DNA from: Nonomuraea sp. SBT364
Lineage (GTDB): Bacteria; Actinomycetota; Actinomycetes; Streptosporangiales; Streptosporangiaceae
Reading direction: 5' to 3'
Length of the DNA: 64,000 bases
NCBI RefSeq assembly: GCF_001083785.1
Contig: NZ_LAVL01000005.1
Coordinates: forward strand, 62,001 to 126,000
In this document: positions 16,039 to 26,369 of the stretch, piece by piece
How the letters are laid out: each line of letters starts with the position of its first letter
Numbering within the stretch: the first letter of the stretch is position 1
Notes under the pieces: generated by a model
Database searches by the model: none
What the model was told of the DNA's origin: nothing
What the model saw: only the letters and a program-made list of their open reading frames with translations
Made by a program: the position numbers and the translations under genes

Positions 16039-16078
16039 GCTGGACGTTTTGGGCGATTTCGTCCGCCTTGAAAACGAG

Positions 16079-16110
16079 CCTGTGGATACATCGAAGGGTG
16101 TATCCACAGG
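16079..16110. promoter_or_regulatory. 12-bp perfect inverted repeat between divergent genes
   Basis: Arms CCTGTGGATACA (16079-16090) and TGTATCCACAGG (16099-16110) are separated by 8 nt. The repeat lies 23 nt upstream of the histidine kinase ATG and 40 nt upstream of the divergent membrane gene. It could be the autoregulatory operator of the downstream response regulator. Each arm also contains GTATCCACA, one mismatch from a DnaA box. Confidence 0.6.
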
Positions 16111-16133
16111 CGACCCCGCGAAGGAGGGAATCG

Positions 16134-17318
16134 ATGGCCGGGGGTGGTGGGATAGGAGCCATGAAACGCGTGCCGCTGCTGGCGGGGCTGGCCTTCCTGG
16201 TGGGCCTGCTCCTGATCGCGGCTGGAGCCTACATCCACCGCGATCCGCCCGTCTGGCAGCCGGCCGAGTGGATGCTGGCGGTGCCGCTGGCGATGACGTG
16301 CGCGGCCACGCTGGGGCGCACGCGCCGGCCCCTGGCCTCGCTCGGGCTGGGCACCACGGGGATCCTGCTCGACATCGTGGTGGGGCCGTCGCTGGGCACG
16401 GTGCTCGTCTACACCGACAATCTGTACGCCGCCGCGCTCTACGGTCCGGCCAGGGCGGCGCGGTGGCTGCTGGGCGCCTCGACGGTGATCGCGGTGCTGT
16501 CCGGGGCGGCGGGCGGGTTCCTGACGGGCGACTGGCGCGTGCTGGCGCTGATCAGCGTGCAGTTGGCGCTGGTGCTGGTGTCGCCGGTGACCACGGCGCA
16601 GGTGCTGCGGCAGCAGCGCGACCGGGCGGCCGCCGAGCGCGCCAGGGCCGAGCAGGTGGCGCGGCTGGCCGAGCTCGACCGGCAGGCGGCCATCACGGCC
16701 GAGCGCACGCGGATGGCCCGCGAGCTGCACGACATGATCGCCAACCACTTCAGCGCCATCGCCATCCAGTCCACGGCCGTGCTCTCCCGCAAGGACCTGG
16801 ATCAGGGCACCGTACGGAAGATCATGGAATCCATGCGGGAAAACAGCGTGAAGGGGCTGGCCGAGATGCGGTCCATGATCGGGCTGCTGCGGCAGGCGGG
16901 CGAGGAGTCGGAGGCCGTGCGGCCCCGGCTGGCCGACGCGGAGGGCCTGGTCGAGCGGGCACGCGGGTCGGGGATGGAGACCGCGTTGCGGATCGAGGGT
17001 GAGCCCCGCGAATTGCCCCCGCCTGTCGACCTGGCTGCCTTCCGGATCCTCCAGGAGGCGCTGACCAATGCCCTCAAGCACGGCGAACGGCCGGCGGAGG
17101 TGCACATCGTGTACGAGGCGCGGCAGGTTTCGGTGACTGTGGACAACCGGGTCAACGGGCGTAGGCCACGGCTGCCGGGAGCCGGGGCCGGGCTGGTGGG
17201 CATGCGCGAGCGGGCCGGGCTCGTCGGTGGCACGTTCGAGGCGGGACCGCGGGGTGACGGATGGCGCGTCACGGCGCGGCTGCCGACCTCGGGACAGGAC
17301 GACAGGAGTGTGGGATGA
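16134..17318 (+). CDS. Sensor histidine kinase (HisKA_3/NarL-type)
   Basis: This 394-aa membrane sensor has four to five N-terminal TM helices (residues about 12-155), a coiled region (QRDRAAAERARAEQVARLAE), a HisKA_3 dimerisation box RMARELHDMIANHFS with phospho-acceptor His199, and a C-terminal HATPase with N-box ILQEALTNALKHG and G-box GAGAGLVGMRERAGLVGG. It phosphorylates the response regulator encoded next, whose ATG overlaps its stop (ATGA). AAGGAGG sits 6-7 nt before the ATG at 16134, fixing the start. The stimulus is unknown. The following genes for membrane proteins, an Lgt-like protein and a radical SAM enzyme suggest an envelope signal. Confidence 0.95.
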   Translation: MAGGGGIGAMKRVPLLAGLAFLVGLLLIAAGAYIHRDPPVWQPAEWMLAVPLAMTCAATLGRTRRPLASLGLGTTGILLDIVVGPSLGTVLVYTDNLYAAALYGPARAARWLLGASTVIAVLSGAAGGFLTGDWRVLALISVQLALVLVSPVTTAQVLRQQRDRAAAERARAEQVARLAELDRQAAITAERTRMARELHDMIANHFSAIAIQSTAVLSRKDLDQGTVRKIMESMRENSVKGLAEMRSMIGLLRQAGEESEAVRPRLADAEGLVERARGSGMETALRIEGEPRELPPPVDLAAFRILQEALTNALKHGERPAEVHIVYEARQVSVTVDNRVNGRRPRLPGAGAGLVGMRERAGLVGGTFEAGPRGDGWRVTARLPTSGQDDRSVG

Positions 17319-17944
17319 GCATCAGGGTGCTGGTGGCCGACGATCATGCGGCGGTCCGGGCCGGGATCGTGCTGATCCTCGACGGGGCCGACGACATCGA
17401 GGTCGTGGGCGAGGCCGCCGACGGTGTGGAAGCCGTGGCCCTGGCCAAGGAGGAGCGGCCGGACGTGGTGTTGATGGACGTGCGGATGCCGCGGATGGAC
17501 GGCATCTCGGCCACCAGGGAGCTGGTGGGGGTGGCCGATGTGCTCATCCTGACGACGTTCGATGTGGACGAATACGTGTTCGGGGCGTTGCGGGCGGGGG
17601 CCGCCGGTTTCCTGTTGAAGAACACCGACGCGGATTCGCTGGTCGAGGCGGTGCGGCTGGTGGCCAGGGGGGATGGGCTGATCTCGCCGGCGGTCACGCG
17701 GCGGCTGATCACGGCGTTCGGGGAGCAGGCGCCGGTGCGGAAGGAGCCGGTCGATCCGGCCGGGCTGACGCCGCGCGAGCGGGAGGTGCTCGCCTGCATC
17801 GGGCGGGGGCTGTCCAACGCGGAGATCGCCAGAGAGCTCGACATGGCGGAGGCGACGACCAAGACTCATGTCAGCAGGGTGCTGAGCAAGCTCGGGCTGA
17901 AGAGCCGGGTTCAGGCCGCCATCTACTACTCGGAGGGCCTCTAG
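17315..17944 (+). CDS. NarL/FixJ-family response regulator
   Basis: This 209-aa regulator has a receiver domain (phospho-acceptor Asp55 in VVLMDVRMPRMDG, DD at 9-10, Lys in FLLKNTD) and a LuxR-type C-terminal helix-turn-helix (LTPREREVLACIGRGLSNAE, then TKTHVSRVLSKLGL). The ATG overlaps the kinase stop by 4 nt, so the pair is cognate. It probably controls its own operon and perhaps the divergent membrane gene through the inverted repeat at 16079-16110; that is inference. Confidence 0.96.
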   Translation: MSIRVLVADDHAAVRAGIVLILDGADDIEVVGEAADGVEAVALAKEERPDVVLMDVRMPRMDGISATRELVGVADVLILTTFDVDEYVFGALRAGAAGFLLKNTDADSLVEAVRLVARGDGLISPAVTRRLITAFGEQAPVRKEPVDPAGLTPREREVLACIGRGLSNAEIARELDMAEATTKTHVSRVLSKLGLKSRVQAAIYYSEGL

Positions 17945-17945
17945 G

Positions 17946-18221
17946 GTGCGGACCTTCTGGCCGGCGCCGGCCGGGGTGCTGGGCTACCTGACGCTCAACG
18001 TGCTCGTGGTGGTCCTCGCCATCTCAACAGGGGCGAAGGCGGCGATCGTCGTGGCGGCCGTGGTGCTGGCGCTGGCGGCGATCGGGGGCGGGCTGGTGCT
18101 CATCATCCTGCGCAAGCCCTGGTCACCGGGGCTGGGGATGGGGCTGATGATCGGCTGGGCGGTAACCTCGATCGTGTCGGCGGGTTGGTGCACCGGCATC
18201 AACCCCGGCTGGTACGTATAG
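17946..18221 (+). CDS. Small membrane protein, 91 aa
   Basis: A GTG-started two- or three-helix membrane protein begins 1 nt after the response regulator stop. Its C-terminal half contains LRKPWSPGLGMGLMIGWA followed by a WCTGINPGWY ending. That is nearly the same as the end of the next gene product (VRKPWAIGLGLGLMIGWA, WCTGLNPALY), so the two are paralogues. Function unknown. The coupling implies co-expression with the two-component system. Confidence 0.8.
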   Translation: MRTFWPAPAGVLGYLTLNVLVVVLAISTGAKAAIVVAAVVLALAAIGGGLVLIILRKPWSPGLGMGLMIGWAVTSIVSAGWCTGINPGWYV

Positions 18222-18272
18222 CCAAGTGAAAGCGCCGCCCCCTAACCTGTGCAGGACCAGGGGGGAGATCCG

Positions 18273-18764
18273 ATGAGCACACCACCGCCACCGCAGGGCC
18301 CCGACGACCCCGCATGGCGGCACCCGTCACCAGGCCAACCACAGGGCCCATCCCAGGGCCCACCCCAGGGCCCACCGCCCGGTCCGCCCCACGGCCCGCC
18401 GCACGGGCCGCACGGGCGGTGGCAGTTGCCGCCTCCGCCGCAGCCGCAGTCCAACTCGGCGGGGATCGTGGTCGGGCTCGCGTTCGCGGGCGCGGCCGTC
18501 TACAGCGTCGTCAACACCATCGTCGTGTTCGGCGTCCTGATGATCGCCGGCAACAACATGGACGGTGACGAGGCCGGTGCCGTGATCGCGGTCGCCGCGG
18601 CGTTCCTCGCCCTGCTCGGGCTCGGCGCCGGTATCGGCCTGGTGCTGGTGCGCAAGCCGTGGGCGATCGGCCTCGGGCTCGGGCTGATGATCGGCTGGGC
18701 GTTGTGGTCGATCATCACGGCCGGGTGGTGCACGGGTCTCAACCCGGCCCTGTACGGCTCCTGA
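18273..18764 (+). CDS. Proline/glycine-rich small membrane protein, 163 aa, paralogue of preceding
   Basis: A cytoplasmic-type N-terminal tail of about 65 residues is built of PQGP/PPGPPHGP repeats. Two hydrophobic helices follow (GIVVGLAFAGAAVYSVVNTI, and one within AVAAAFLALLGLGAGIGLVL), and then the conserved C-terminal module RKPWxxGLGxGLMIGWA...WCTGxNP shared with the 17946 gene. AGGGGGGAGA precedes the ATG. The Pro/Gly tail resembles DUF4190-like actinobacterial membrane proteins. The role is unknown. It ends 1 nt before the Lgt-like gene. Confidence 0.85.
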   Translation: MSTPPPPQGPDDPAWRHPSPGQPQGPSQGPPQGPPPGPPHGPPHGPHGRWQLPPPPQPQSNSAGIVVGLAFAGAAVYSVVNTIVVFGVLMIAGNNMDGDEAGAVIAVAAAFLALLGLGAGIGLVLVRKPWAIGLGLGLMIGWALWSIITAGWCTGLNPALYGS

Positions 18765-18765
18765 G

Positions 18766-19497
18766 ATGCCGCTGCACGAGATCTTCGTCGGCCTCGGCGT
18801 CCTGGTCGCCTCCGTGGTGTTCGTCCGCGAGGCCCGCAGCCGGGGCGCGCTGAACGAGCAGTCGCTGGTGGCGGTCACCGGCGCGCTGGTCGGCGGCGCC
18901 ATCGGCATGCGGCTGGCGGGCTGGCTGGAGACGCTCGACCTGCAGAGCCTCTGGCTGTACGGCTCCCGCAGCATCCTGGGCGGGCTGACCGGCGCCTACC
19001 TCGGGGTGCTCGTGGCCAAGCGGGTCATCGGCTACCGGGAGCGCACCGGCGACCTGTTCGCGCCCGCGGTGGCGCTGGGCATGGCGGTCGGGCGCATCGG
19101 CTGCCATCTCACCGAGGCCCCGGGGCGGCCCACCTCGCTGCCGTGGGGCATCCACGCACCGGCGAGCACCCCCGAGTGCCCCGGCTGCCTGGCGGGCCAG
19201 GCGATGCATCCGTCGTTCGTCTACGAGATCGTCTTCCAGCTCGCCGCGTTCACCGCCCTGGTGTGGGCGCGCAAGCGGCTGACCAGGCCGGGTGAGCTGT
19301 TCACGCTCTACCTGGCGGGCTACGCCGCGTTCCGCTTCCTCGTGGAGTTCACGCGGGCGAACGAGATCCTGTGGCTCGGCCTGACGGGACCGCAGTGTTT
19401 CCTCCTGCCCGGCCTCCTGCTGCTGGGGCTCAGGCTCGGGTACGGCTGGCGGCGCGGATACTACGATGCCCTCTTTGACCGGAAGGTGCACCAGTGA
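18766..19497 (+). CDS. Prolipoprotein diacylglyceryl transferase (Lgt)-like membrane protein
   Basis: This 243-aa polytopic protein has the Lgt family layout: seven hydrophobic segments, the signature region GRIGCHLTEAPGRPTSLPWG, then HPSFVYEIVF, and a late RFLVEFTRAN segment. True Lgt transfers diacylglyceryl from phosphatidylglycerol to lipobox Cys. Here the signature GRxxNFxNxE reads GRIGCHLTEA, so both canonical Asn residues are replaced and the substrate may differ. Four nucleotides (GTGA) overlap the radical SAM gene, so the two are translationally coupled and probably act on the same, perhaps lipidic, substrate. Confidence 0.85.
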   Translation: MPLHEIFVGLGVLVASVVFVREARSRGALNEQSLVAVTGALVGGAIGMRLAGWLETLDLQSLWLYGSRSILGGLTGAYLGVLVAKRVIGYRERTGDLFAPAVALGMAVGRIGCHLTEAPGRPTSLPWGIHAPASTPECPGCLAGQAMHPSFVYEIVFQLAAFTALVWARKRLTRPGELFTLYLAGYAAFRFLVEFTRANEILWLGLTGPQCFLLPGLLLLGLRLGYGWRRGYYDALFDRKVHQ

Positions 19498-21047
19498 GCA
19501 CAGGGATGGAGCTGCGGGGCGACCGCATCCTCCGCTACGTCAACGCGTTCTGCCCGCATTGCCAGGAGCGTGACCTTGACCGGGTGGAGCGGCTGAGCGG
19601 CTATCTGGCGGCCAGGGACGGCCGGGTGTGGCTCGAACGCGGGTGCCGGAAGCACGGCCTGGTGAGGACGCTGTACGACGAGGACCCGGAGATCCTGGCG
19701 TACCTGGAGGAATGGACCGCTCCCACCAAGCAGCACATGCCCGATATTTCGGGAAATTTTGCGCCAGTGCCCGGCGCGTACCTCCACGGGCTCCCCGAGA
19801 TGCAGACCCAGCACACCTGCATCCTCCTGGAGGACATCGCCGAGGCGTGCAACCTGCGCTGCCCCACCTGCTTCGCCGGCAGTTCCCCCGACCTGAGCGG
19901 CATCGTCCCGGTCGCCGACGTGCTGGCCAACGTCGACCAGCGCCTGGCCAGGGAGAACGGCAAGCTCGACGTCCTCATGCTGAGCGGCGGCGAGCCCACC
20001 CTGCACCCCGAGCTGAAGACCCTCCTCGCCGAGCTGGCCGACCGCCCCATCACCCGGATCCTGATCAACACCAACGGCGTGCTGATCGCCCGCGACGACT
20101 CCCTGCTCGACCTGCTCACCGAGCACCGCGAGCGGGCCGAGGTCTACCTCCAGTACGACGGCTCCTCGGCCGAGTCCTCCAGGCATCACCGAGGCGGTGA
20201 CCTGCGCAGGCTGAAGGCCGAAGCCGTACGAAGACTGTCGGAGCGCGAGATCTTCACCACGCTGGTGATGACCGCCGCCCTGGGCGTCAACGACGGCGAG
20301 CTCGGCGACGTCATCAAGCTGGCCCTCGACACCCCGTACGTGGGCGGCGTGTCGCTGCAGCCGCAGTTCGGCTCCGGCCGGTCGGGAGCCATCGACCCGA
20401 TGGACCGCCTCACCCACACCGGGGTGCTCAAGCGGCTCGGCCCGCAGACCGGCGGCCTGGTGACCTGGCGCGACCTGACCGCGCTGCCGTGCTCGCACCC
20501 GCACTGCTGCTCGGTCGGCTACCTGATCCGCGACGACTCCCGGCAGTGGCGCTCTCTGGTGGCACTGATCGGCCACGACCGGCTCAAGGAGAACCTGGGC
20601 CTGGTCTCCAACCGCATCGCCGACTCCGAGATCCCGCGCGAGCTGCGCCTGGCCGTCCAGGAGTCGCTGCTCGGGCTGCTGTCGGAGCAGTCGTCGCTGT
20701 CGCATCCGCGGATCGGCGACGTGTGGCGCACCATCTGTGAGAACTGCGACCTCGGCGTCTCCACCCTGCTGGCGCTGGCCTCGTCCGCGCTGCCCGGCAG
20801 GCGCGCGAAGCTGCGCCGGATGCTCGGCGAGCGGGTGGTGCGGGTGACGGTCAAGCCGTTCATGGACCTCTCGACCATGATCGAGGAGCGGCTGACGCAG
20901 TGCTGCGTGCACGTGGGCACGCGATCCGACCGCGACCAGTGCGCGCCGTTCTGCGCCGTGCAGGCCTGGCCGCAACTGTCGGCCCAGCGGCTGTCGGCGG
21001 TGGCCGCCGAGCCGAGGGTACGGCTTCCGCTGGAGGTGATCACGTGA
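19494..21047 (+). CDS. Cysteine-rich radical SAM enzyme, MJ0619/tetraether-synthase-like
   Basis: This 517-aa protein has three metal regions. An N-terminal CPHC...GCRKHG element sits at residues about 19-54. The radical SAM cluster CNLRCPTC (CxxxCxxC) follows near residue 120 with LSGGEPTLHPEL, and YLQYDG after that. A C-terminal Cys set (CSHPHCCSVG, CENCDLG, TQCCVHVG, QCAPFCAVQ) could bind further clusters. The order CPxC / CxxHG / CNLxCPxCFA / SGGEPT / QxDG matches the archaeal MJ0619 and Tes group, whose studied members do radical methylation or join lipid chains. Assignment is by motif memory. GTG start, preceded by GGAAGG. Confidence 0.85.
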   Translation: MSTGMELRGDRILRYVNAFCPHCQERDLDRVERLSGYLAARDGRVWLERGCRKHGLVRTLYDEDPEILAYLEEWTAPTKQHMPDISGNFAPVPGAYLHGLPEMQTQHTCILLEDIAEACNLRCPTCFAGSSPDLSGIVPVADVLANVDQRLARENGKLDVLMLSGGEPTLHPELKTLLAELADRPITRILINTNGVLIARDDSLLDLLTEHRERAEVYLQYDGSSAESSRHHRGGDLRRLKAEAVRRLSEREIFTTLVMTAALGVNDGELGDVIKLALDTPYVGGVSLQPQFGSGRSGAIDPMDRLTHTGVLKRLGPQTGGLVTWRDLTALPCSHPHCCSVGYLIRDDSRQWRSLVALIGHDRLKENLGLVSNRIADSEIPRELRLAVQESLLGLLSEQSSLSHPRIGDVWRTICENCDLGVSTLLALASSALPGRRAKLRRMLGERVVRVTVKPFMDLSTMIEERLTQCCVHVGTRSDRDQCAPFCAVQAWPQLSAQRLSAVAAEPRVRLPLEVIT

Positions 21048-21283
21048 AGGCCGAGCCGTACGATCCGCTGAGGTTGTGCGTCTATGCGACGATCGCGCTG
21101 CTGGCGTGGTTGTTCGGGCCATGGGCGTTGCTGGCGTTCGCCGGGCTGGGGTTCGCGGGCTACTGGAAGGCGCGGCGGGCCGGGCTGACCCGGAGCAAGT
21201 GCCTGCTCCGGGACACCCGGCTGGTGCTCGCCTACCTCGGACTGCTGGCCGCGGTCGCGGTGGCGGCGATCATCTTCTGGTGA
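21044..21283 (+). CDS. Small membrane protein, 79 aa, last gene of the radical SAM operon
   Basis: A GTG start overlaps the radical SAM stop (GTGA) and GGAGG lies 7 nt before it, so it is a genuine coupled gene. It has two hydrophobic hairpin helices (ALLAWLFGPWALLAFAGLGF and LAYLGLLAAVAVAAIIFW) with a basic loop ARRAGLTRSKC between them. Function unknown. It may anchor the cysteine-rich enzyme to the membrane. Its 3' end overlaps the convergent gene by 14 nt. Confidence 0.8.
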   Translation: MKAEPYDPLRLCVYATIALLAWLFGPWALLAFAGLGFAGYWKARRAGLTRSKCLLRDTRLVLAYLGLLAAVAVAAIIFW

Positions 21284-22556
21284 CGGCCGCCAGGTTCAGC
21301 ACGGTGACCTTCGGGCCCTCGCCCCAGTACATGATCGTCGTGGGCGAGGAAGAGGTTCCGCTGCCGTAGCCGGTGGGCTTGTCCGGCGACATCCGGTGCA
21401 CGCCCCCGATCAGGCCGGTCGCCGGGTCGTAGACCGCCACAGGCGCGACATATTCCTTCGCCGGATCGGCGTCGCCCCTGTTCGGCATGACCGGGGCGAA
21501 CCGGTCGCCCAGGAGCTCGCCGAAGTAGGACAGCGAGGGGAACTGCCTGATGTCGGAGCCGTCGGCGCGCTGCACGACAAGCCCGCCGTCACCGGCGGCG
21601 GCGCCGTAGCACCACTCGGCGGCGCAGGTCAGCTTCGTGGTCGCCGGAGGCACCGGGATCTCGGTCACCTCGCCGGTGACCAGGTTGACCCTGCGGTTCT
21701 GGTTCTTCTGCCCGCGCTCACCCGGGGCGTAGCCGACGGCGTGCGGCCAGGAGGTCAGGTGGAGGCCGTCGGAGCCCTCGACCTTCTCGGCCTGCCCGCC
21801 GGACAGCGAGATGCGGTACACGCCGCCCTGGCGCAGGGACCAGACCAGGGAGTCGTCGGTGACGCCGATCCGCTCCACGTCGGCCGGATCGCCGGTGACC
21901 TCGCCCAGGCGCCGGGCGGTGCCGCCTTCGCGGGGGATGACCCAGAAGTCGGCCCACTTGTCGCTGTTGTTGGGCGTCGTGCCGTACCAGGCGAAGTGCT
22001 CCTCCCCCACCTCGACGCCCTGGACGTAGTAGCCCTTCACCCCCTCGGGGGCGGGCATCTTCCCCACCACCCGCACGTCGCCGGTCGAGGCGTCGTAGAC
22101 CTCCAGGCGGCCCGCCTTCTCGAAGGAGGACTCGGCGGTCAGCAGCACCTCGGTGGGGGAGATCCCGGTCACCGGGCGATATTTCCAGCCGTCGGACGCC
22201 GCGGCGGGCATCGTGAACACCGCCTCCGGCCACACCTCGGCCGCCGGCTTCACCGTGACGTCCTCGGCGGGCTGCACCGTGACCTCCTCGGCGGGCTGCA
22301 CCGTGACCTCCTCGGCGGGCGGCATCGTGGTGACCGCGACCGCCGGCCTCAGCGAGACCGACGGGGTCCCCTGCCACATGGCCGCCATCCCCCCTGCGAC
22401 CAGCACCACAGAGGCGGCCGCCAGCGCCGTCCCGGCCCACTGCCGGCGCCGGCGCGTCCGGCGGCGGGCGGCGACGGCGGCAGCCAGCCCGCCGGACGGC
22501 GTGACGTGCCCGGCCCCGGCACGCAGGGTCCGGACCAGGTCCTCTTCGCTTCTCAT
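21270..22556 (-). CDS. Membrane-anchored beta-propeller-like protein paired with SigE-family sigma factor
   Basis: A 428-aa protein. Residues 1-40 are a cytoplasmic basic segment, one TM lies near 42-62 (GTALAAASVVLVAGGMAAM), and a large extracytoplasmic domain with repeated WD-like strands follows (LVWSLRQGGVYRISLSG, FAWYGTTPN, TTIMYWGEGPKV). The octapeptide PAEEVTVQ is repeated three times (24-nt DNA unit) just after the TM. Start ATG 22556 overlaps the sigma-factor stop (ATGA). Position, topology and the paralogous pair at 24546-26269 suggest an anti-sigma or sensor role; no zinc anti-sigma motif is present. Confidence 0.85.
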   Translation of the reverse strand: MRSEEDLVRTLRAGAGHVTPSGGLAAAVAARRRTRRRRQWAGTALAAASVVLVAGGMAAMWQGTPSVSLRPAVAVTTMPPAEEVTVQPAEEVTVQPAEDVTVKPAAEVWPEAVFTMPAAASDGWKYRPVTGISPTEVLLTAESSFEKAGRLEVYDASTGDVRVVGKMPAPEGVKGYYVQGVEVGEEHFAWYGTTPNNSDKWADFWVIPREGGTARRLGEVTGDPADVERIGVTDDSLVWSLRQGGVYRISLSGGQAEKVEGSDGLHLTSWPHAVGYAPGERGQKNQNRRVNLVTGEVTEIPVPPATTKLTCAAEWCYGAAAGDGGLVVQRADGSDIRQFPSLSYFGELLGDRFAPVMPNRGDADPAKEYVAPVAVYDPATGLIGGVHRMSPDKPTGYGSGTSSSPTTIMYWGEGPKVTVLNLAAVTRR

Positions 22557-23044
22557 CGTGCCTCCTGCAGCATTCGCTTGATCCGGAGCTTGTCCAGGGC
22601 GCGCGCCGCCTGGCTGCGCACGGTGCCGCGGGAGACGCCGAGGATCGCCGCGATCTCCGCGTCGGGCAGGTCCTCGTAGTAGCGCAGCACGAGAACCACC
22701 CGCATCTTGCGCGGCAGCCCCTGGAGCTCCGCCCACAGGTCCGCGTCCTCGTAGCGGTCGAAGCGGCCCTCCTCGGGCACGACGGACACCAGTTCCTCCC
22801 GGTGCCCGCGCCGCCACGAGGCGATGTGCAGCCTGACCATGGTCGTGCGCACGTATCCCTCGGGGCTGTCCTTCTTGCGCACACGCGGCCAGGCGTCCCC
22901 GAGCCGGGCCAGAGCCTCCTGGACGAGGTCGGCCGCGTCCTCCGCGTTACCGGACAGCACGTAGCCGTACCGGAGGAGCGCATCGCCCCGGGTCCGGACG
23001 AACTCGTCGAATTCCGTCGTGTGGTCCACGTATCCAGGGATCAT
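22553..23044 (-). CDS. SigE-family RNA polymerase sigma factor (copy 1)
   Basis: A 163-aa group-4 sigma factor of the actinobacterial SigE family. Region 2 is EFDEFVRTRGDALLRYGY and AEDAADLVQEALARLG; region 4 is LPRKMRVVLVLRYYEDLPDA and EIAAILGVSRGTVRSQAARA. It directs RNA polymerase to unknown promoters. Start ATG 23044 was chosen; ATG 23074 would lie inside the terminator stem of the upstream CHAP gene. The coupled downstream propeller gene is its likely partner. Confidence 0.93.
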   Translation of the reverse strand: MIPGYVDHTTEFDEFVRTRGDALLRYGYVLSGNAEDAADLVQEALARLGDAWPRVRKKDSPEGYVRTTMVRLHIASWRRGHREELVSVVPEEGRFDRYEDADLWAELQGLPRKMRVVLVLRYYEDLPDAEIAAILGVSRGTVRSQAARALDKLRIKRMLQEAR

Positions 23045-23075
23045 CCAGCAAGCGGAGCTGTTGCATGAAAACACG

Positions 23076-24545: not shown

Positions 24546-25802
24546 CTATTGCGCGGGCGGGACGGCTGCCAAGTTCAGCACCCGGAACTTGTCCGGCTTG
24601 TCGCCCTTGGTGGCTCCCCAGTAGTAGATCGCGCTCGGCTCGGACGAGACGCCCATGCCGTACCAGGTCCCGGTGCCGCCGAACGCGGCCAGCTTGCCGG
24701 TCGCCAGGTCGTACACGGCCATGCTCGCCGGCAGGAAGCGGTCGAGGATCGGATACCGCGCCGGCCCGCCGCTGCTCACCTGGATCCGCCGGGGCGGTTG
24801 CGAGCCGTCGACCCTCGTGACGACCGTCCCGTCCGATCCCCGGCCGAAGCACCAGACCGGGCCGCAGCGCAGGCGCTCCACGCCCGGCGGAGCCTGCACG
24901 GAGACGTTGGAGCCGTCCTCCAGGTTCACCAGCCGGGTCTGGCTGCGCTCCATGTCACCCGGCAGGTCCGCGACGTCGGAGGCCCACGGCCACTTGATCA
25001 GGTGCAGGCCGTCGCTGCCCGGGATCTTCTCGGGCGTGCTCCCGCCGAGCGGATGCCGCCACACGCCGCCGTCGACCTCCGACCAGACGACGTGGTCGCC
25101 GTCGAGGGCGATCGCGTCGAGGTCGGCGTCCTCGCCGACGCGGCTCGTCACCAGCCTGGGGTCTCCGCCGGCCAGCGGGACGGTCCAGATGTCGCGGATC
25201 TGCGTGCCGTCGGCCTGCTCGCCGTACGCGTACCAGGCGAGGTTCTCGCCGTCGACCGTGACGCTCTGCGTGATGTACCTCTTCAGCCGGTCGTCCTCGG
25301 GCACTTCGGCGACGACCCTGGCCGTGCCGGTCGCGCTGTCGTACACCTCGAACTTGCCGGCCTTCTCGAACGACGACTCGGCGCTGAGCAGCACCTCCGT
25401 GGGGCTGATGGCGGTGATGGGGCGGTAACGCCAGCCGTCGGAGTTCTCCGCCGGCATGGTGAACACCGCGTCCGGCCACAGCTCCCCGGCCACCGCGTCC
25501 TGCCGCCTGACCGACTCCGGCGACGTCGTCGCCGATGCCGTGACCGTGGCCGTGACCGTTGCCGACACCTCGGCCGACGCCGTGACCGACCCCTGTGGCT
25601 GCGGGGGGCCGTCGACGGCGGCGCCCCTGATGACCGCCGTGCCCGTACCCGCCACGGCCACCACGGCCGCCGCGGCGAGGAACTGCGCACGTCTCCTGGC
25701 GCGCCGCTTCCGCAACCGGGTGACGCCCGCCAGCAGATCGGACTCCGGCGCCCCTTTCACACCTTCCCGCAGAGCCGTGACCAGCTCGTCCTCTGTCCTC
25801 AC
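24546..25802 (-). CDS. Membrane-anchored beta-propeller-like protein (paralogue of the 21270 gene)
   Basis: This 418-aa protein shares the architecture and many segments of the 21270 gene product: an N-terminal acidic-basic tail MRTEDELVTALREG, one TM (residues about 38-58), a Thr/Val/Ala-rich stalk (VSATVTATVTASATT), then a propeller domain with WPDAVFTMPAENSDGWRYRP, ISPTEVLLSAESSFEKAG and GSDGLHLIKWPW. The paralogue has near-identical counterparts. The GTG start overlaps the sigma stop (GTGA). It is likely an extracytoplasmic sensor or anti-sigma partner; no HExxH-CxxC zinc motif is seen. Confidence 0.85.
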   Translation of the reverse strand: MRTEDELVTALREGVKGAPESDLLAGVTRLRKRRARRRAQFLAAAAVVAVAGTGTAVIRGAAVDGPPQPQGSVTASAEVSATVTATVTASATTSPESVRRQDAVAGELWPDAVFTMPAENSDGWRYRPITAISPTEVLLSAESSFEKAGKFEVYDSATGTARVVAEVPEDDRLKRYITQSVTVDGENLAWYAYGEQADGTQIRDIWTVPLAGGDPRLVTSRVGEDADLDAIALDGDHVVWSEVDGGVWRHPLGGSTPEKIPGSDGLHLIKWPWASDVADLPGDMERSQTRLVNLEDGSNVSVQAPPGVERLRCGPVWCFGRGSDGTVVTRVDGSQPPRRIQVSSGGPARYPILDRFLPASMAVYDLATGKLAAFGGTGTWYGMGVSSEPSAIYYWGATKGDKPDKFRVLNLAAVPPAQ

Positions 25803-26269
25803 GCCCGTCCCCTTTCGAGCATCGCCGGCCTGACCCGGAGCGTGTTGAGCGCGCGGAACGCCTGGCTTCGCACCGTTCCCCGGGAGATGCCGAGAATCGT
25901 GGCGATTTCCTGGTCGGACAGGTCCTCGTAGTAACGCAGCACCAGCACGGCGCGTTGCCGCCGTGGCAGTGTGGCCAGCTCCTTCCAGAGCTCGCCGGTG
26001 GAGTGACGGTCGGTGTAGGAGCCTTCCGGCAGCTCGCCCGTCAGGCGCTCACGCCGCACCTTTCGCCACCAGCTCACGTGCTGGCGGGCCATGATCGTGC
26101 GTACGTACGACTCCGGATTGTCCTTGTTGCGCACGCGCCGCCAGGTGTCGCTCAGCCGGAGCAGCGCCTCCTGCACCAGATCGGCGGCGTCATCGGCGTT
26201 GCCGGTGAGCACGTAGCCGTATCTGAGGAGGGCCGGCCCTCTGGCCCGGACGAAATCCTCGAACTCCAC
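25799..26269 (-). CDS. SigE-family RNA polymerase sigma factor (copy 2)
   Basis: A 156-aa group-4 sigma factor. Region 2 is VEFEDFVRARGPALLRYGY and ADDAADLVQEALLRL; region 4 is LPRRQRAVLVLRYYEDLSDQ and EIATILGISRGTVRSQAFRA. It is very close to the copy at 22553. I prefer the GTG at 26269, which aligns with the other two sigma starts; an ATG at 26326 would add 19 residues. The propeller gene overlaps its end. Confidence 0.9.
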   Translation of the reverse strand: MEFEDFVRARGPALLRYGYVLTGNADDAADLVQEALLRLSDTWRRVRNKDNPESYVRTIMARQHVSWWRKVRRERLTGELPEGSYTDRHSTGELWKELATLPRRQRAVLVLRYYEDLSDQEIATILGISRGTVRSQAFRALNTLRVRPAMLERGRA

Positions 26270-26369
26270 ACCACCATGACGCCCGGGGTGGGCTCGGCTG
26301 TTGCAAACTTCTTTACCCGAAATCATCGCGCACCTGTTCGAGTCCGCGCTACAGTCTTAGGTACTCGAA

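Follow-up and report, generated by a model that had tools for sequence, protein, structure and literature searches.

A strictly paired Lgt-like protein and radical SAM enzyme in an apparently undescribed, putative membrane-modification module of actinobacteria

What would a relative of Lgt make together with a cysteine-rich radical S-adenosylmethionine (SAM) enzyme? The question is raised by a stretch of 64,000 nucleotides from Nonomuraea sp. SBT364 (contig NZ_LAVL01000005.1, positions 62,001 to 126,000; hereafter the window, with positions counted from its first letter), in which the genes for two such proteins overlap. Lgt transfers a diacylglyceryl group from phosphatidylglycerol to a lipobox cysteine, and Tes/GDGT-MAS, to which the radical SAM protein is distantly related, joins two sp3 carbons of lipid chains. 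In the genomes sampled, the two genes were, at the cut-offs used, present together or not at all, and because the pairing is so strict, both enzymes very probably serve one product. The gene cluster is apparently undescribed, a putative small membrane-modification module with accessory membrane proteins. The reading that we tentatively favour, with a probability of roughly 0.36, combines diacylglyceryl transfer to an unusual acceptor with radical chemistry on lipid chains.

The two enzymes and the protein that follows them, Y, are encoded as follows:
18766 to 19497, + strand: Lgt-like integral membrane protein (ATG start, 243 amino acids, GRIGC at residues 109-113)
19494 to 21047, + strand: radical SAM enzyme of the HMPTM/Tes/TrsS group (GTG start, 517 amino acids)
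21044 to 21283, + strand: Y, a small membrane protein (GTG start, 79 amino acids, two invariant cysteines, C12 and C53)

Each gene overlaps the next by 4 nucleotides (GTGA in both cases). The first-pass annotation of this DNA had drawn attention to the altered signature GRIGCHLTEA in the Lgt homologue, to its overlap with the radical SAM gene, to the CPHC...CRKHG, CNLRCPTC and C-terminal cysteines of the radical SAM protein, and to a small membrane protein gene overlapping the far end. All of these features were borne out by the open reading frames (ORFs) and the sequence.

Pairing of the two genes

The annotation had also proposed that the two genes are coupled, and the coupling proved to be real in three sets of genomes. 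A contig search gave 333 confirmed relatives of the radical SAM protein, and the 80 loci named here are the best 80 of these 333; they come from Nonomuraea, other Streptosporangiaceae, Nocardia and mycobacteria. In 79 of the 80, an Lgt-like gene on the same strand precedes the radical SAM gene by 0 to about 1000 bases. The sole exception (L072) has just 443 bases up to the contig end. In a sample of 394 genomes of the class, with thresholds of E ≤ 1e-90 for the radical SAM protein and E ≤ 1e-50 for the Lgt-like protein, each was detected in 24 genomes, and these were the identical 24 genomes, from 11 of 137 genera. The matches were 9-740 bases apart, and no genome carried one gene alone at the cut-offs used. 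In the phylum sample, the same 10 of 396 genomes held both clades side by side. The clade limits were at least 448 bits for the best piece of the radical SAM protein (next genome, 219) and at least 333 bits for the Lgt-like protein (next, 157). The chance figure for this co-occurrence, 4e-20, is only a guide, because the class and phylum draws share at least five genomes and the genomes are related. One genome (G295) was left out of the pair counts because it has just a fragment of the radical SAM protein (101 bits), encoded in disrupted pieces close to the beginning of a contig; no Lgt-like relative was seen near this fragment.

Within the genus, 43 of the 53 other genomes had a long match of high identity, and among named species the radical SAM protein had its closest match in N. 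ceibae (96-97%). One genome of the genus that lacks such a match (G006) keeps just remnants of the radical SAM gene, along with a Y in two frames (6635-6946 of L167), which we read as decay of the module. When 23 loci were compared over a neighbourhood of up to 8 kb, the shared genes were the Lgt-like gene, the radical SAM gene, a membrane protein gene that we call X and, in part, Y, and no other. X and Y are each missing at some pairs, so the two enzymes alone are constant in the module.

In M. avium and M. branderi the module was also seen on plasmids (L172, L173), where it has two X-like genes and lies close to transposase genes. One short contig, L049, is titled Nocardia aurea and is perhaps a contaminant; the similarity of its module to that of the window equals that of the Nonomuraea lactucae modules (L045, L046).

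A related pair was found in the Bacteroidota. Plasmid pPP1 of Persicobacter psychrovividus carries overlapping genes for an Lgt-like protein, with GRIGC, and a radical SAM protein; the products show 34% (Lgt-like) and 30% (radical SAM) identity with those of the window, and the radical SAM protein retains a CPYDCGLC motif. In trees both proteins fell next to those of the module; support was weak for the radical SAM protein (59/76) and stronger for the Lgt-like one (99/96, joint group). This placement is tentative because both rows are long branches. About 2 kb from the Persicobacter pair (L171, 8370-18010), beyond a gene on the opposite strand, lies a large ketosynthase gene (Pfam ketoacyl-synt) with what appear by eye to be acyl-carrier-like repeats. 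No Lgt was found in 15 stretches, several of them short, that hold divergent relatives from actinobacteria (L148-L162, 25-32% identity). Sequence patterns for the two proteins gave no confirmed relative in a viral collection.

The two enzymes

That the first protein is an Lgt homologue, as annotated, was supported by sequence and structure model alike. It scored 104.3 bits against Pfam LGT (PF01790; gathering cut-off 24.9), and its structure model (pLDDT 69.8) matched E. coli Lgt (5azb; E=3.4e-05, TM-score 0.63), the only PDB match under E 0.001. The Lgt equivalog TIGR00544 was not reached (76.8 bits; 118.9 needed). The genome holds two other Lgt genes that score better (224 and 218 bits, versus 104.6 for the module protein), and these would be the ones for ordinary lipoproteins.

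Six residues are essential in E. coli Lgt (Y26, H103, R143, N146, G154 and R239), of which the two arginines, R143 and R239, are said to position the phosphate of phosphatidylglycerol, according to the accessible part of PMC13251419. The module protein keeps three of the six: R143, G154 and R239. H103 is replaced by Leu and N146 by Cys, and Y26 is not kept, its position aligning with Ile. The cysteine at the N146 position, Cys113, occurs in all 20 aligned relatives, among them that of Persicobacter, and many other positions are invariant as well. A CPGC pair in the protein of the window was considered as a core site and dropped, as it is not kept in all distant relatives.

The first-pass annotation had made a point of the changed signature, and here it went too far, the change not being special to this setting. 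Twenty Lgt loci from other actinobacteria (L186-L205), the next best and picked for their likeness to the module protein, were compared: 19 have GRxGC, which continues as GCCYG or GCCCG in 17 of the 20. The accessible text of PMC13251419 also states that H103 is not general among Lgts, and that the Lgt of Leptospira, with N146C, can stand in partly for that of E. coli. Because these other Lgts carry it, GRxGC by itself is no proof of a new reaction, and the idea that it shows a non-Lgt reaction was dropped. When 11 of the 20 Lgts and both host Lgts were put into one tree, the proteins of the module and of Persicobacter stood apart (99/96).

The second Lgt homologue of Mycobacterium smegmatis, MSMEG_5408, has N146C and Y26H and is presumed to have low Lgt activity (PMC13251419, in its accessible part). 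It is probably an orthologue of the module protein, as we infer. MSMEG_5406, two numbers away, was strongly changed in zinc-starved M. smegmatis, according to an excerpt of PMC7174638, the one paper that turned up for the gene numbers adjoining MSMEG_5408. For MSMEG_3222 together with Lgt, the open-access literature gave nothing beyond PMC13251419.

The second protein matched Pfam Radical_SAM (66.9 bits; cut-off 29.5) and Zn_ribbon_HMPTM (37.8 bits; cut-off 27). It had been annotated as of the MJ0619/Tes type. As a statement of distant kinship this stood, the best solved relative being GDGT-MAS/MJ0619 (7tol; residues 2-347, E=4.7e-29; a further piece, residues 445-492, is weak and not significant by itself). 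As an assignment to Tes proper it was overstated. In a profile search, the curated Tes model NF045702 scored 141.2 bits over residues 17-336, under its cut-off of 450. The curated TrsS model NF045646 was the best of the curated models, with 188.2 bits over residues 17-489, against 490 needed. These scores rule out plain membership in either Tes or TrsS.

The cysteines give a similar picture of the kinship. All 19 module rows in the alignment carry C20, C23, C51, H54, C109, C119, C123, C126, C333, C338, C418, C470, C471, C483 and C487. They include the ligands of a rubredoxin-like CX2C...CX2H site (C20, C23, C51 and H54) and the CX3CX2C radical SAM cluster site (C119, C123 and C126). C470, C471 and C487 align with cysteines of 7tol, further cysteines differing and the structure model being too poor to judge the domain, and the chemistry of GDGT-MAS relies on its C-terminal cluster, according to the accessible part of PMC9433317. 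The same source gives C73, C77, C80 and a histidine as the ligands of the N-terminal auxiliary cluster of GDGT-MAS. This cysteine motif was found in none of the 19 module rows, with a conserved H107 kept nearby, and in 15 of the 17 other rows (all but L157 and Salinirubellus). C483 showed the reverse distribution (19/19 versus 0/17) and is specific to the clade. A PCSHPHCC sequence of the module enzyme was not found in 7tol in their alignment. In the tree, the 19 module rows grouped together (100/100), and the branch that carries them has a length of 3.0 changes per site.

Accessory proteins and possible products

The remaining genes of the neighbourhood lie upstream of the pair:
18249 to 18764, + strand: X, a proline-rich N-terminus followed by a hydrophobic part with the end SIITAGWCTGLNPALYGS
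17946 to 18221, + strand: X', a short paralogue of X, membrane protein with the C-terminal end AGWCTGINPGWYV
16068 to 17944, + strand: histidine kinase and LuxR-type response regulator (Pfam HisKA_3, Response_reg, GerE)

X' and X, directly upstream of the Lgt-like gene on the same strand and absent from the first-pass annotation of the pair, are counted as members of the cluster. For X we judge an ATG at 18273 a likelier start than the annotated 18249. X is the only good relative of X' in its own genome (59% over 63 residues, E=1.7e-16; next, E 0.38 and 0.54), and no other convincing relatives of the two were found there. A relative of X stood beside the module in all of the 22 other loci compared, and the cysteine of its CTG/CTA motif was present in all 23. 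A motif scan that required this cysteine found X at 79 of the 80 loci with the strict pattern and at 80 of 80 with one position relaxed. Its place varies: X precedes the Lgt-like gene in 34 loci (Nonomuraea-type and Thermoactinospora) and lies between the core genes in 46. By computed hydropathy, the conserved cysteine is near the end of the last hydrophobic segment (AGxCTGxNPxLY). Y was found in 58 of the 80 loci and in each of the nine distant-family stretches that extend beyond the radical SAM gene (L141-L146, L163-L165). Its C12 and C53 were present in 20 of 20 aligned rows, and no Pfam or NCBIfam family matched it above cut-off.

The genes for the histidine kinase and response regulator immediately precede X' and run in its direction; their products are possible regulators of the module, with uncertain membership, and at one locus (L034), the two ORFs at this place match ORFs in 3 and 4 of 22 other loci. 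Downstream on the minus strand, two alike adjacent gene pairs (21270-23074 and 24546-26326) look like a duplication, each with an apparent extracytoplasmic function sigma factor (by eye) and a partner of about 400 residues with common phrases.

The sequence itself establishes the families, the gene order, the strict pairing, the kept phosphate-binding arginines and the metal-ligand cysteines; the parts played by X and Y are inferred. The favoured reaction would take a lipid as its substrate, and its order of steps and topology are, like the sidedness of X, a matter of judgement. The Lgt-like protein, a putative transferase in view of its retained phospholipid-binding residues, would bind phosphatidylglycerol and move its diacylglyceryl group, but not to a normal lipobox lipoprotein. 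Within this family, the strongest candidate for the acceptor would be the conserved cysteine of X, the setting of which resembles that of a lipobox cysteine at a helix end. The radical SAM enzyme, with a lipid role suggested by its distant kinship, would generate a 5'-deoxyadenosyl radical and activate an unreactive C-H bond in the lipid chains with the help of a presumed C-terminal auxiliary cluster. The lipid acted on would be one that feeds the diacylglyceryl transfer or results from it, and the outcome would be a coupled or otherwise modified chain. Y may be an accessory membrane partner.

This reading is backed by the strict pairing, the kinship with GDGT-MAS, the retention of R143, G154 and R239, the two better-scoring host Lgts, the confinement of X and X' to the module in this genome, and the related pair in the Bacteroidota. 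Several points weigh against it. The lipid substrate is suggested by kinship; that with Tes is distant, and the TrsS model fits better. The AlphaFold model of the radical SAM protein (mean pLDDT 49.7) is too poor to check for a lipid pocket. The Lgt-like protein might catalyse the usual reaction, because other Lgts have N146C too, and one of these works in part in E. coli. Neither in the more distant families, save for one short match in L164, nor in Persicobacter was X recognised, and it is therefore not the acceptor everywhere. Y was missing from the fetched stretch at 22 of the 80 loci, in mycobacteria and a few others, where a diverged Y may be overlooked. A bolder form of the idea is doubtful: that actinobacteria and at least one bacteroidote have a pathway that joins diacylglyceryl transfer to radical SAM chemistry on alkyl chains and so yields a new class of lipid or lipid-anchored membrane protein, for example X with a chain-coupled diacylglyceryl anchor on its C-terminal cysteine.

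Another possibility, which we consider rather unlikely, is the modification of a membrane protein in the manner of a ribosomally synthesized and post-translationally modified peptide. The radical SAM enzyme would modify X or Y, for example near an invariant cysteine, and the Lgt-like protein would lipidate the same protein. The invariant cysteines of both and the restriction of X to the module, at 80 of 80 loci, agree with this, but X and Y are each absent at some pairs and the kinship of the enzyme points to the Tes/TrsS group. The loss of Y26, H103 and N146 with R143, G154 and R239 kept could also be explained if the Lgt-like protein were a non-catalytic, phospholipid-binding subunit that hands a lipid to the radical SAM enzyme or anchors it at the membrane, a role with which the strict pairing and the 4-nucleotide overlap are consistent. 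The conservation of C113 in 20 of 20 rows and of many other positions is, however, as in an active site, and N146C occurs in a partly functional Lgt (PMC13251419, accessible part); we think this explanation improbable.

Tetraether or other membrane-spanning lipids, the direction in which the first-pass annotation had pointed, are a possible product that we do not favour. The radical SAM enzyme would join two phospholipid tails as Tes does, and the Lgt-like protein would supply or move the diacylglyceryl units. GDGT-MAS is the best solved relative, and bacterial Tes homologues exist that are proposed to make branched glycerol dialkyl glycerol tetraethers (PMC8941075, in part). The low Tes score, the missing N-terminal cluster cysteines and the additional C483 speak against such an enzyme here and make this outcome quite unlikely. 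The better, whole-length fit of the TrsS model, the methyltransferase gene adjoining two divergent relatives on plasmids, and the compatibility of N146C with Lgt activity could be accounted for by a small-molecule pathway of the TrsS kind beside which an ordinary diacylglyceryl transferase is kept. Against this stand the strict pairing and the lack of any further shared gene across the 23 loci, and we give it little credence. Chance neighbourhood is ruled out, to all intents, by the co-occurrence counts with adjacency (24/24 and 10/10) and by X, which shifts its place in the cluster yet stays.

The kinds of enzyme are themselves known. Tes homologues have been described in bacteria (PMC8941075), Mss and Tes homologues in bacterial metagenomes (PMC11868695), and Gms as a synthase of glycerol monoalkyl glycerol tetraethers (PMC11186832), each according to the accessible part of the source. 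Searches of the open-access literature for Lgt or diacylglyceryl paired with radical SAM or tetraether gave nothing on this gene pair, with single mentions of the terms in one paper (PMC7641849), and those on TrsS and class D/MJ0619 gave nothing on this clade; the module is apparently new to the literature. If its substrate is a lipid, ordinary soil actinobacteria would activate the chains of their membrane lipids by radical chemistry in the course of normal life, and a likely role would be found for the second, poorly active Lgt that is reported in one mycobacterium. Because named species of Nonomuraea and Mycolicibacterium carry the module, its product can be sought by genetics.

Comparison with known systems

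Compared with Lgt proper, the module protein has the same Pfam family, the fold match to 5azb and R143, G154 and R239; it differs in falling short of TIGR00544, in the changes of H103 to Leu and N146 to Cys, and in the loss of Y26. With the Lgts of Leptospira and of deep actinobacterial lineages it shares the cysteine at the N146 position. Those proteins have a second cysteine pair, whereas the module proteins are without it (GRxGC..TE..G) and form the separate group in the tree (99/96). For MSMEG_5408, the accessible part of PMC13251419 mentions no radical SAM partner.

The radical SAM enzyme has in common with GDGT-MAS/Tes the rubredoxin-like CX2C...CX2H, the CX3CX2C site and the C-terminal CC...C cysteines. 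It differs from them in lacking the N-terminal cluster cysteines and in having PCSHPHCC and C483. TrsS, a radical SAM (seleno)protein, provides the nearest curated model over the whole length, but one that the module enzyme does not reach (188.2 of 490 bits), and the gene of the module is distinguished from it by adjoining an Lgt-like gene.

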